Made by a program: the position numbers and the translations under genes. A stretch of DNA of 64,000 bases from Saccharibacillus sacchari DSM 19268 (GTDB lineage Bacteria; Bacillota; Bacilli; Paenibacillales; Paenibacillaceae), in the NCBI RefSeq assembly GCF_000585395.1, contig NZ_KK073875.1, positions 1,983,995-2,047,994 of the forward strand. Reading direction: 5' to 3'. The notes under the pieces were generated by a model that was given only the letters and a program-made list of their open reading frames with translations, searched no databases and had not been told where the DNA came from. This document shows positions 19,425-29,458 of this stretch, piece after piece; the first letter of the stretch is position 1; the number at the start of each line of letters is the position of its first letter.

Positions 19425-20641
19425 GTACTCTGTATCGCTTAAACTTCAGGGTAAAGCCGTTTAAGTCGAATTCGTGCATCTTGAGTGGTAAACTGCCAAT
19501 TCACCGTCGAGTGAGCCTCATTTCGGTCAGATTCCCAAGCTTTGACGCGCGAAACCATTTCGCTTCGAGTGGAGACATAATCGGATAACGCCTGCCGACT
19601 TAGAACACCAATCTCAATTTCAGCCATGTTTAACCAACTTCCATGTTTCGGCGTGTAATGAATTTCTAACTTGTTCGCGATTCGCTTGGCTTCCGCGGGT
19701 TCAAAAGCTTCATAAAGCGATCCAATACTGTGCGTATTCAGATTGTCCATCACCAGCACGATTCGCTCGGCTTCTGCATAGTGGACGTCCACAAGCTCTT
19801 GAATACACGCCGCAAAGTCGACTCGCTTGCGTTGGTCACTCACTCGAACATGACGTTTGGACTCAAGCGGGGCAAACATCATGAACAGATTTACAACCCC
19901 ATTTCGCTTGTATTCATAGTCTATTCGTTTAGGCGAACGAGGTTTAACTGGAATCGAAGACCGGATTTCTAGCGTGAGCTGTCGATTCGTTTCATCGAGA
20001 CAGACTAAAGGACGTTTCGGATCGTACGGACGTTGGTATACATCCAGAATATCTTCCATATGAGCCACAAACTCTCCAGAAGCTTCGGGGATGCACCACT
20101 GCTTTTTCAGCCAAGGCTTAAGTTCGTTTTTTTCATCAGGCGCTGGACACTCATCGGAGAAATCTCATCCACCATGTCGAGTTGAACCATCCGATTCGCA
20201 AGCAGCCGAACGGACCACTTGCTGTAGCCCTCTGGCGGTTCACTGCAAGCCAGAGCCACCAGCTTGGCTTCGGTTTCTCCGTCGAATTTGATCTTGCGAT
20301 TGATTTGTTTTTCGCGCTCTAACGCCGATTCAAAGCCTTTTTCGACTAATCGCTTTCGTAGATTTCGAACGGTGCTTTCGCACGTGCGATACGCTTCAGC
20401 AATTTGGACATCCGACCATGAGGGACCGAATTCACCTTCATCCGCTTGCAGCAACATGTGAGCCTGTCTGATTTTGTAGCCCGCAACTTTTCCTTTTTGA
20501 ATGAGTTGTTCCAACTCGGTGCGTTCCTCTTGGCTCAACTCGACAATCCATTTTTTAGGCATGGTTAGCTCCTCAAATCAGTTTTAGATGATATATCGGT
20601 GCGTAAAACCGTTACCGTTAATTTCTACAGATACAGAGTAC
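19425..20641 (-). mobile_element. IS630-family insertion sequence, 1217 bp
   Basis: Both ends carry the 12-bp inverted repeat GTACTCTGTATC, and each end is flanked by TA, the target site duplicated by IS630 elements. The single transposase is encoded on the minus strand in two frames. It lies in the intergenic space between the vWA gene and the 865-residue gene and so separates parts of one gene cluster without breaking a coding sequence. Confidence 0.85.
19439..20562 (-). CDS. IS630 transposase, two frames joined by -1 slippage
   Basis: The first frame (20107-20562) encodes the helix-turn-helix part: SWSDVQIAEAYRTCESTVRN and the winged KWSVRLLANRM segment. The second (open through 20068 to 19439) encodes the DDE catalytic core: PLVCLDETNRQ, VLVMDNLNTHS and WLNMAEIEIG. 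They overlap at ATG-AAAAAAA-C (A7 at 20127-20133 on the complementary strand), where a -1 slip fuses them into about 373 residues, the normal size for IS630 transposases. The second frame has no good start of its own. The three acidic catalytic residues are present, so the element may be active. Confidence 0.85.
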
Positions 20642-26982: not shown

Positions 26983-27165
26983 GTTGCCTATTTGACAACG
27001 TAGCGCGCGGTTTGAAGTCGGCTGATGAGCTACGTTGCTTATTTGGCAGCGTAGCTTGTATGTTTGGGTCTTCTTAAAGCCGATTGTCGGTTCTACGTTG
27101 CCGAATAGGCAAGGTGACTCCGACTATTAGCGTTTTGAGTCGTCTACGTTGCATTTTAGGCAATC
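26983..27165. repeat. four palindromic repeats, core CTACGTTGC-n5-8-GCAAC
   Basis: Units at 26983-27004, 27029-27055, 27093-27114 and 27144-27165 each read GTTGC, an AT-rich loop and a GCAAC-like arm; the second is nearly a perfect 27-bp palindrome. Spacing is 46 to 64 bases. They lie upstream of the tubulin-like gene. From 27190 to 27410 a second loose repeat (GTTGA-C/T-G, five to ten bases, AGTCAG, then AAAA) occurs at least twice. No gene is seen in 26815-27649. Confidence 0.6.
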
Positions 27166-27431
27166 ACGGCGAAGAGCAACACCGTCTCAAGACGGGGACG
27201 TTGATGAAAAAGCAACTTTTTAGGCAGAAAATCAGATTTTCACAGCAAAAGTGTACGAAAGGTCAACATTTTCCGCCTTTTGACCGCTGAAAGACGATTT
27301 TCCCAGTGAATTGTTGACGTGAAGTCAGCATTTGCGGGAAAAGGGGCGGGTTAGGGCGGAAATGTTGATGAGAAGTCAGGATTTTTGTGAAAAAGTCAAA
27401 ACAGTTAAAACCTTTTTGCGTTCCGGAGAAG

Positions 27432-27647
27432 GCTTCCTTAATTCGATTGGAATCGCTCGTTGGATAGAAGATGAAGCCAGTTGAACCGTCTGGCTTCATC
27501 TTCTTTCATCAAACTCGCTGATGGATTTAAGGAAGCTTGGGGCTTCATCAATTCGATCGGAATCGCTTTCTGGATAGAACTCGAAGCCAGTTGAACCGTC
27601 TGGCTTCGAGTTCTTTCGTTAAAATCGCTGGTGGATTTGATGAAGCC
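27432..27647 (-). ncRNA. tandem pair of structured elements with compensatory changes
   Basis: Two 105-bp copies, offset 110 bp (27432-27536 and 27541-27647). Each has an outer stem (10-11 bp) and an inner 14-bp stem closing an identical 9-base loop. All five differences within the stems are matched on the opposite arm. On the minus strand they directly follow the stop codon of the vWA gene (27650), so they would form the 3' end of its mRNA. No T-run follows, so they are not plain terminators. Expression as RNA is inferred. Confidence 0.55.
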
Positions 27648-27649
27648 TT

Positions 27650-29458
27650 TTATACCAAATATTCCACCAAAATCGTCTTTCCGGCCTGCACCATCGGAAC
27701 GGTAATTCGATCCCCGCTTTTCAGTTCCAGCCCTTTCGACGTATCCACGACGCGGCCGGATTTTTCGATCGGGACGCCTTCGGCGCTGCTGCGCAGCACG
27801 ATGCGGTCTTCGGAGCCCGGGGTGAAGACGATGTTTTCGGTGTCCTTCAACTCGGGAGCGAGCTGGAGAAGCTGATGCAAATTAAGACGGCCTTTGTACG
27901 TATTTAGTTTCTTATATTGCGGATAAGAGCGTTCGCCGGTATTTTCGTCGCGGATCTCGATCACCATTTGACCGACGAAGCCTTTGTTGACTTTTTGCAG
28001 GTACTTCATGACGAAAAACGCGATGACCGCCAGCAGGATCAGGCCGAGTACGCCGAGAATGACCGGGATCAACGGGAACTTTTTCTCGCTTTCGGTGCCC
28101 GCTCCGCCAGATACGGCACCGGATGCCGCATCGATGCTGATCGGCGCGGATTCGCGATAGAAGCTGTCCGCTTCCGCGCGAACAATCAAGGTATACTTGT
28201 GCGCTTCAGGCAGCTCGTAGCTTCCGTCGAACTGCGTACCGTTCAGCGTCATCGGAACGCTCGTCTCCGTACCCGTATCCTCGTCCTTCACGACGAGCGA
28301 ACCTTGCATCGTCGCGTACAGTTCGGGCGAATCCAGCTTCGTCCCGCCGCTCGTCAGATAAGCGGAGACGTCAATTTTATCGCCTTTGCCATATGAAGAA
28401 CCGCTCAGCGGAGCGGTCGCCAGCTCCAGATCGTAGTTGAAGACCAAGTTGATATCGATCTGGTCTTTGTCCGCGCCTTTGACGCTCAGCGTCCAATCGC
28501 CTTCCTGCGGCTTGATCATTTTGAGCAGGGAATACGTCTTGGACGTGGACAACGTAACCGCGTCCGAAGGGATCGCCGCTTCGGCACCGCTCGGGTCTTT
28601 CAGTTTCAGCTCTACCTTTTGAGTTGAGGTAATCGACACGTTAGCTTCCAGCACGTTGGCATTCGGCACGCTGATTTTCACGTCTTGGAAATCACCGTTG
28701 CCTGTCAGTGAACCCAACGGCACAACGTTAAGCTGCTGGTGACTGGCGAAGATTTCGCTCAGGATACCCGGCAGATCGTCGGCGGAGTCGGTCACGAACG
28801 ATTTGCCGCTCGTATCGGCCGCAATCTTTTCCAACTCGGCCTGATTCAGTTTGCCGTCGGCATTGAGCCCGATCGTATAGACGGGAATGCCGGCATCTTT
28901 CGCTTTTTGCACCGAATCGGCCAGTTCCTGCTGCGATTGCTCCAACGTTTTCGACTTGGTCGTGTTGAGCTGGGTATTGCCGTCGGCAAGCAGAACGATC
29001 ATCGGCTCGCGCCCCGTCTGCGCACTTCGTTGCAGCATGTTGACCGCTTCGGTGACGCCGACCGCCGTGTCCGTATAAGCGCCTCGGCCCAACTGTCCGA
29101 TGAACGTCTTCAGTTCTTCTTTGTCGGACTGGCCTTGAATCTCCAGCAGCGCTTTCTCGCGCTGCACGACATCGGTGTACGAAACGATACCGACGCGATC
29201 TCCCTGAACCGGCAGCATGTCGATGAACAACCGCATCGCTTCGTTGCCTATTTTTTGCGGGTCGCTGGTTGCCATCGAATTGCTCGCATCGAGCACCAAT
29301 ACCGCATCGATCGGCGCGGAACCCGCCGAGCTTGCCGCCGACCCTGAAGAGGTCGTTCCCGAGGCCGCTGCAAGCCGCGATCCTGCCGGAAGTAATCCCG
29401 TCACCAGCAGCAGAGCCGCAAGCAGCGGGTAGATCAGCCTTTTTATTTTCGGAACCAT
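27650..29458 (-). CDS. membrane-anchored von Willebrand A protein, 602 aa
   Basis: A cleavable signal peptide (residues 1-32) leads to an extracytoplasmic vWA domain with a complete metal site: DASNSM at 57-62, the YTDTAVG loop, and LLADGNTQ. Two or three beta-sandwich domains follow (about 240-440), then a membrane helix (about 461-488) and a cytoplasmic domain of about 113 residues with FTPGSEDRIVLRSS and SGDRITVPMVQAGKT, which looks like a small beta-domain of the FHA or similar type. The topology is suited to signalling between a surface ligand and the cytoplasmic tubulin/GTPase proteins. AAAGGGG precedes the ATG. Confidence 0.8.
   Translation of the reverse strand: MVPKIKRLIYPLLAALLLVTGLLPAGSRLAAASGTTSSGSAASSAGSAPIDAVLVLDASNSMATSDPQKIGNEAMRLFIDMLPVQGDRVGIVSYTDVVQREKALLEIQGQSDKEELKTFIGQLGRGAYTDTAVGVTEAVNMLQRSAQTGREPMIVLLADGNTQLNTTKSKTLEQSQQELADSVQKAKDAGIPVYTIGLNADGKLNQAELEKIAADTSGKSFVTDSADDLPGILSEIFASHQQLNVVPLGSLTGNGDFQDVKISVPNANVLEANVSITSTQKVELKLKDPSGAEAAIPSDAVTLSTSKTYSLLKMIKPQEGDWTLSVKGADKDQIDINLVFNYDLELATAPLSGSSYGKGDKIDVSAYLTSGGTKLDSPELYATMQGSLVVKDEDTGTETSVPMTLNGTQFDGSYELPEAHKYTLIVRAEADSFYRESAPISIDAASGAVSGGAGTESEKKFPLIPVILGVLGLILLAVIAFFVMKYLQKVNKGFVGQMVIEIRDENTGERSYPQYKKLNTYKGRLNLHQLLQLAPELKDTENIVFTPGSEDRIVLRSSAEGVPIEKSGRVVDTSKGLELKSGDRITVPMVQAGKTILVEYLV

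Follow-up and report, generated by a model that had tools for sequence, protein, structure and literature searches.

Integron attC sites combine arms that are free in sequence with unpaired bases that are recognised in the folded strand, and they lie just after the stop codon of a gene. The element reported here would resemble attC only in its manner of working, and it differs in having a 4-bp target-site duplication and in carrying its conserved parts inside, rather than at outer core sites. The bcr1-type repeats of the Bacillus cereus group are likewise short, intergenic, multi-copy, foldable and MITE-like; according to the available portions of two reports, they are often located within UTRs and operons, and bcr mobility has been linked to a TTTAT motif (PMC6542083, PMC3446304). 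By comparison of descriptions, as far as those portions go, our element is set apart by arms that are free, by unpaired motifs that are conserved and by a duplication that spans 4 bp and varies in sequence. The BOX and RUP elements of pneumococcus are also proliferated short foldbacks whose terminal repeats pair, and 36 BOX elements provide the stop codon at the 3' end of a gene (PMC3049150, in the accessible part of the text); most pneumococcal-type repeats in this comparison end in TA (PMC2229807, likewise a partial text). Compared by description, BOX and RUP have another host and mostly TA ends, and sequence-free arms are not described for them in the accessible parts of these papers. Among the matches listed from the open literature, judged by title and the start of the abstract, no such repeat was described in Paenibacillus or Saccharibacillus, and the element family is apparently uncatalogued.

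The two copies that led to this family are located in a 64,000-nucleotide stretch of Saccharibacillus sacchari DSM 19268, referred to here as the window. Copy 1 (27432..27536, plus strand, as are all element features below) consists of an outer stem with its 5' arm GCTTCCTTAA at 27432..27441 paired to the 3' arm at 27527..27536, a first unpaired motif GATTGGAATCGCTC (27445..27458) that is conserved across the family, an inner stem with arms at 27467..27480 and 27490..27503 that encloses a conserved apical loop (27481..27489), and a second unpaired motif CATCAAACTCGCT (27507..27519), which is a direct repeat of the first according to the sequence and the family alignment. Copy 2 (27542..27646) has inner arms at 27577..27590 and 27600..27613 around its apical loop (27591..27599), and its outer 3' arm TTGATGAAGC (27637..27646) pairs with 27542–27551. 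The copies scored 118.2 bits (E 1.3e-26 in their own genome) and 117.9 bits, respectively, with covariance model R1, which was built from five copies including copy 1. Taken as 27431–27536 and 27541–27646, each is 106 nt long, and the two are spaced by 110 nt and 83% identical.

The first-pass annotation had described five stem differences between the copies, each matched on the opposite arm, and this description is accurate: ten of the 18 differences form five pairs. The 14-bp inner stems, GAAGATGAAGCCAG in copy 1 and GAACTCGAAGCCAG in copy 2, are both perfect and carry the same 9-nt loop TTGAACCGT, and the outer stems (GCTTCCTTAA and GCTTCATCAA, respectively) are each perfect over 10 bp. Loops and linkers had been reported as shared; this applies to the apical loop, but the linkers are similar rather than identical, since eight differences fall outside the stems. 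The adjacent gene (27650..29458, minus strand) encodes a von Willebrand A domain protein (Pfam VWA), and its stop codon faces the elements. The elements do adjoin this codon, as had been noted, with the codon starting 2 nt past the last paired base, 27647. Because the gene is encoded on the minus strand, the strand that carries the motif is antisense to vWA, and the elements are located immediately 3' of the gene. The pair folds more stably than shuffled sequences (z = −8.86, with none of 200 shuffles as stable), and single copies give z values of −6.6 to −8.2 on either strand (−6.64 for copy 1 and −8.20 for copy 2). The same intergenic region contains three imperfect 21-nt repeats of the TCTACGTTGC...TAGGCAA type (27029–27163). 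Elsewhere in the window, two minus-strand frames (19439–20562) presumably resemble a split IS630-type transposase.

A nucleotide search of the same genome returned distant matches near csoR and mutL with the same loop and linkers and other stems; the csoR locus consists of two tandem copies. Covariance-model searches extended this pattern of different yet paired stems to many other genomes; within Saccharibacillus, further covarying copies are thus present and the stems do not decay freely. Model R1 found seven copies, one antisense self-match and one weak match in the S. sacchari genome, and matched ten of 59 genomes, namely this one, eight of the 15 others of Saccharibacillus and one of 43 more distant genomes. 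Model R2, built from 53 copies, matched at least 78 of 394 genomes of the family and at least 68 of 392 genomes drawn from the order, two of the latter being outside the family; these are undercounts, since only ten candidates per genome were scored. With 150 candidates scored in each, 31 matches were found in genome G193 and 19 in G214 (E ≤ 0.001). Genomes of Saccharibacillus and of other Paenibacillaceae have several loci each, and some contain dozens of copies. A left-end pattern, which counts left ends and not whole elements, gave 110 matches at up to two mismatches (83 at zero or one) in G192, P. terrae NRRL B-30644, compared with five for the reversed control; this genome belongs to the same genus (g7) as G021, P. 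pabuli. A pattern scan of named genomes yielded 69 loci, 13 of them from other taxa; two of these, both labelled Brevibacillus MAGs, contain elements at E ≤ 0.01 and 11 do not. Two genomes from another family of the order (G427 and G443) have best E-values of 3.5e-8 and 2.6e-9.

The elements share one order of parts, in which an outer stem encloses motif GATTRRARTCGCT, an inner stem around loop TTGAACCGT and the motif once more. In the consensus, the outer arm is followed by approximately GATTNNAANCGCTC, a short purine-rich stretch, the inner arm, a loop near TTGAACCGT, the second inner arm, approximately GATTNAAGTCGCT and the closing outer arm. On the two strands of the internal loop, one motif is present as a direct repeat; judging from its letters, the apical loop may be a third, weaker version of this motif. 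The inner hairpin is missing from some copies, as a deletion between direct repeats would give, and such forms could have arisen through recombination between these repeats.

Covariation was assessed in two alignments, both fitted to the structure. Alignment A4 (53 copies, all but one from Saccharibacillus) covers 43 of the 48 loci of alignment A3 and was restricted to matches with E ≤ 1e-8. Its covariation score is 0.862, compared with 0.197 for shuffled and at most 0.221 for slid alignments, and both-sided changes are found at all 24 pairs (434 cells), a measure that 14 of 500 shuffles also reach. Alignment A5 (53 copies from relatives) scores 0.303 vs 0.075. An anchored count, made on the matched sequences without their alignment, found 874 of 932 pairs to be Watson-Crick, 12 G-T and 20 A-C; it excluded stems that had an insufficient number of Watson-Crick pairs (17 skips), identical-stem repeats and six antisense self-matches. 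At the csoR site in seven species, the outer stems differ yet are complementary, although replacement by another copy may account for these differences.

Selection acting on RNA tolerates G-U pairs but not A-C mismatches, so that the two are informative about the level at which pairing is maintained. In the aligned elements, both are rare, with G-T to A-C ratios of 16:20 (A4) and 9:17 (A5), or 25:37 in total, whereas 213 terminator-like hairpins in the same DNA gave 135:51 (Fisher p 7e-6); the rule by which these hairpins were selected is blind to the G-T/A-C difference but is other than that used for the elements. The G-U excess of a transcribed strand is absent from the elements on either strand. 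Therefore, pairing seems to be kept at the DNA level, or on both strands, rather than for a single RNA strand; the same G-T/A-C pattern would result from selection on both RNA strands. The first-pass annotation had read the paired changes as the mark of selection or templated repair on a folded nucleic acid. The covariation is real and recurrent, but the structured RNA that this reading implied is not supported, given stems without a G-U excess and relatives in which the element is mobile DNA, with target-site duplications and empty sites. No match to Rfam 15 was obtained at the gathering threshold for the window and six loci. At relaxed thresholds there were 13 matches, mostly to microRNA precursors but also to a snoRNA, two bacterial sRNAs and a UTR element; all were far below gathering scores (best E 0.019) and were dismissed as hairpin noise.

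Mobility is documented in the relatives, where the element is 118 bp long and usually begins with CAGGA or CAGCA and ends with TCCTC or TGCTC. Exact 4-bp direct repeats flank 21 of 46 non-redundant copies, the set having been cut from 53 by removal of copies with like flanks. This is the best of 144 offset pairs, the next best giving six, and 2000 re-pairings at the same offset gave a mean of 2.5 and a maximum of eight. For one copy in G214, empty sites were identified in G286 and G243, in which the flanks meet with a 4-bp overlap and the repeat is single; the G214 query minus the 118 bp and one repeat aligns to them without gaps at 92%. A third relative (G223) aligns to the emptied query at 83% with four gaps. 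Five other copies in G214, among six candidates scored, are 95–97% identical to the query element, and amplification in this genome was therefore recent. The MITE traits observed are a short length, multiple copies and terminal inverted repeats, the outer arms being able to pair. In Saccharibacillus, no target-site duplication was detected in the 42 of 53 rows included (11 were left out), the best offset giving three of 42 against a re-pairing mean of 2.5. The mobility of these copies thus rests on kinship.

An autonomous partner was sought at seven left ends that stand alone, of which six are in G193 and one is in G192, and was not found: the 1.3–4.5 kb read contained no convincing right end, and the eight neighbouring frames matched no transposase family, encoding ordinary domains or none. 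A loose right-end match in L273 was attributed to chance.

Another candidate reading takes the copies for intrinsic transcription terminators that have come to look alike by convergence, which we regard as very improbable. A TTTTA follows the second copy on the motif strand, and a terminator-like hairpin with a motif-like loop (L077) is found in the same genome. However, the sequence itself, read directly at vWA only, has no U-run in the sense of that gene, the motifs are common to unrelated loci, and the relatives show empty sites and target-site duplications.

Position relative to genes distinguishes the Saccharibacillus copies from those of the relatives. A facing stop codon lies within 12 nt of the right end in 37 of 46 Saccharibacillus arrays, two loci from G021 being excluded from the array count. 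Without a cluster that may depend on a spurious frame (L025, L066, L067 and L069), 33 arrays abut a stop codon, and these represent six independent loci: vWA, csoR, mutL, haemolysin III, AIM24-like and nitroreductase. Another four loci do not clearly abut a stop codon (M29 peptidase, ispE-purR, the doubtful GH4/AraC cluster and L039). The grouping into about ten loci is our own. Given a chance of such closeness of 0.056 per non-coding position of the window, six of ten loci corresponds to p ~5e-6. In the A5 relatives, only nine of 53 copies are within 12 nt of a facing stop codon and 44 are not. A 'sense stop' signal on the left side (seven of 53 copies; nine of 46 arrays) was set aside, as it may reflect overlapping spurious frames.

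At mutL, the comparison covered eight of nine loci (L050 stops at a contig end), and gaps within blocks were scored as differences. When the element is divided into blocks of ten columns, identity across the eight species is 0.73–0.97 in most blocks and falls to 0.55 and 0.64 in two linker blocks, whereas fourfold sites reach 0.538 and the flanks, some of which contain further tandem units, do not exceed 0.54. The element is thus far better conserved than synonymous sites, which indicates that it is under constraint at this locus and suggests a host role. At csoR, the sequence that follows the stop codon has an identity of 0.603, which does not exceed the 0.614 of fourfold sites, and constraint there is therefore visible only in the motifs and the pairing. 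Three close species (G012, G013 and G014) lack the vWA element. One of these, G014, nests beside the species of the window with support of 93/93, below the tree's own mark; the vWA element is therefore dispensable or was inserted more than once.

A structured RNA, whether a 3'-UTR element or a small RNA whose fold is selected on one transcribed strand, would account for the strong covariation, the very stable fold, the constraint at mutL and the location of most Saccharibacillus copies right after stop codons in one orientation. We nevertheless consider it unlikely, because G-T pairs are no commoner than A-C mismatches on either strand, even in the anchored count, the Rfam search was empty at gathering scores, the elements of relatives transpose and a U-run after the stem is absent in the vWA sense.

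Alternatively, template switching between the arms during replication could be the main process that keeps the palindromes perfect. This process predicts change that is blind to wobble and restricted to Watson-Crick pairs, as observed, and compensatory change in a single event by template switching has been described (PMC8794818, in the part available). G193, where one-sided changes are numerous, also has two private both-sided changes that appear genuine. Against this stand the young copies of G214: in the 12 copies without an indel in the inner hairpin, all 12 changed stem cells are one-sided, so that copies there decay freely after insertion. Both-sided changes in this genome (eight Watson-Crick and one other singleton, and one shared, beside 13 one-sided singletons) were not counted because all are in L157, L167 and L172, where in our reading an indel shifts the alignment. 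Both-sided changes are also not clearly clustered, as a footprint of template switching would be (29 observed vs 23.7 expected, sd 3.3), and this candidate signal was not convincing. Finally, the conserved unpaired motifs are beyond what switching maintains and need selection. As the main keeper of the stems, template switching is thus quite improbable. Templated repair, which had been proposed alongside selection, is argued against as the sole cause by the one-sided changes in G214, and is possible in Saccharibacillus and for the two G193 changes. We favour selection for folded DNA, which would act at transposition in the relatives and, in Saccharibacillus, at the copies kept at gene ends; template switching may help in the upkeep of the stems.

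Taken together, the two copies in the window are probably a tandem pair from a non-autonomous, palindromic, MITE-like element family of Paenibacillales. Such an element would be a nested foldback in which the outer stem, serving as the terminal inverted repeat, encloses two copies of the motif in direct orientation, with the inner stem and its apical loop between them. Arm sequences would be able to vary freely provided that they pair, and the unpaired motifs would be conserved. The fold would be needed as DNA, in the form of a hairpin or a cruciform, and a putative transposase or host protein would read the unpaired motifs; the Saccharibacillus copies after stop codons may have been retained for a host role at gene boundaries. 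We offer a more specific version only tentatively, as a possibility that we doubt: a mobile element recognised by shape, whose unpaired motifs are read by an enzyme on a folded strand of DNA while the arms are free to evolve, could in one genus have turned into a conserved structure at stop codons that marks gene boundaries inside strings of co-directional genes.

The family, which has recently been active in one genome or more, represents a large group of repeats in an order of bacteria that live in soil or with plants. Its stems covary like those of a textbook RNA and bear the wobble signature of DNA, which calls for caution in covariation-based discovery of RNAs; the comparison of G-T with A-C provides a means of telling DNA-level from RNA-level pairing. 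The copies also offer natural experiments on the persistence of perfect palindromes, through selection or template switching, and on the retention of elements within a few bases of stop codons.

Several copies depart from the common arrangement. L042 (1392–1926) contains five tandem units in which the arm types ACATCGTC and TTTTGCCAAA alternate, one of them without an inner hairpin. In the P. pabuli copy L044 (1501–1643), an unrelated hairpin has apparently been inserted within an inner arm. Downstream of the mutL element in L029 and L055, second tandem units retain the outer stem and the motifs, and their inner hairpin has apparently been swapped for an unrelated one. Hairpins with a single motif were considered in the S. 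sacchari genome, where GATTGGAATCGCTC has 99 matches at up to two mismatches (five for the reversed control). Among the 30 inspected, two correspond to known copies, a third is located next to one and a fourth is L077; no flanking arm exceeds 9 in the remaining 26, and this candidate class was discarded. L077 (5663629–5663642) is a terminator-like hairpin with a perfect 20-bp stem and a loop, ATTGGAATCGCTCAT, that is similar to the element motif.
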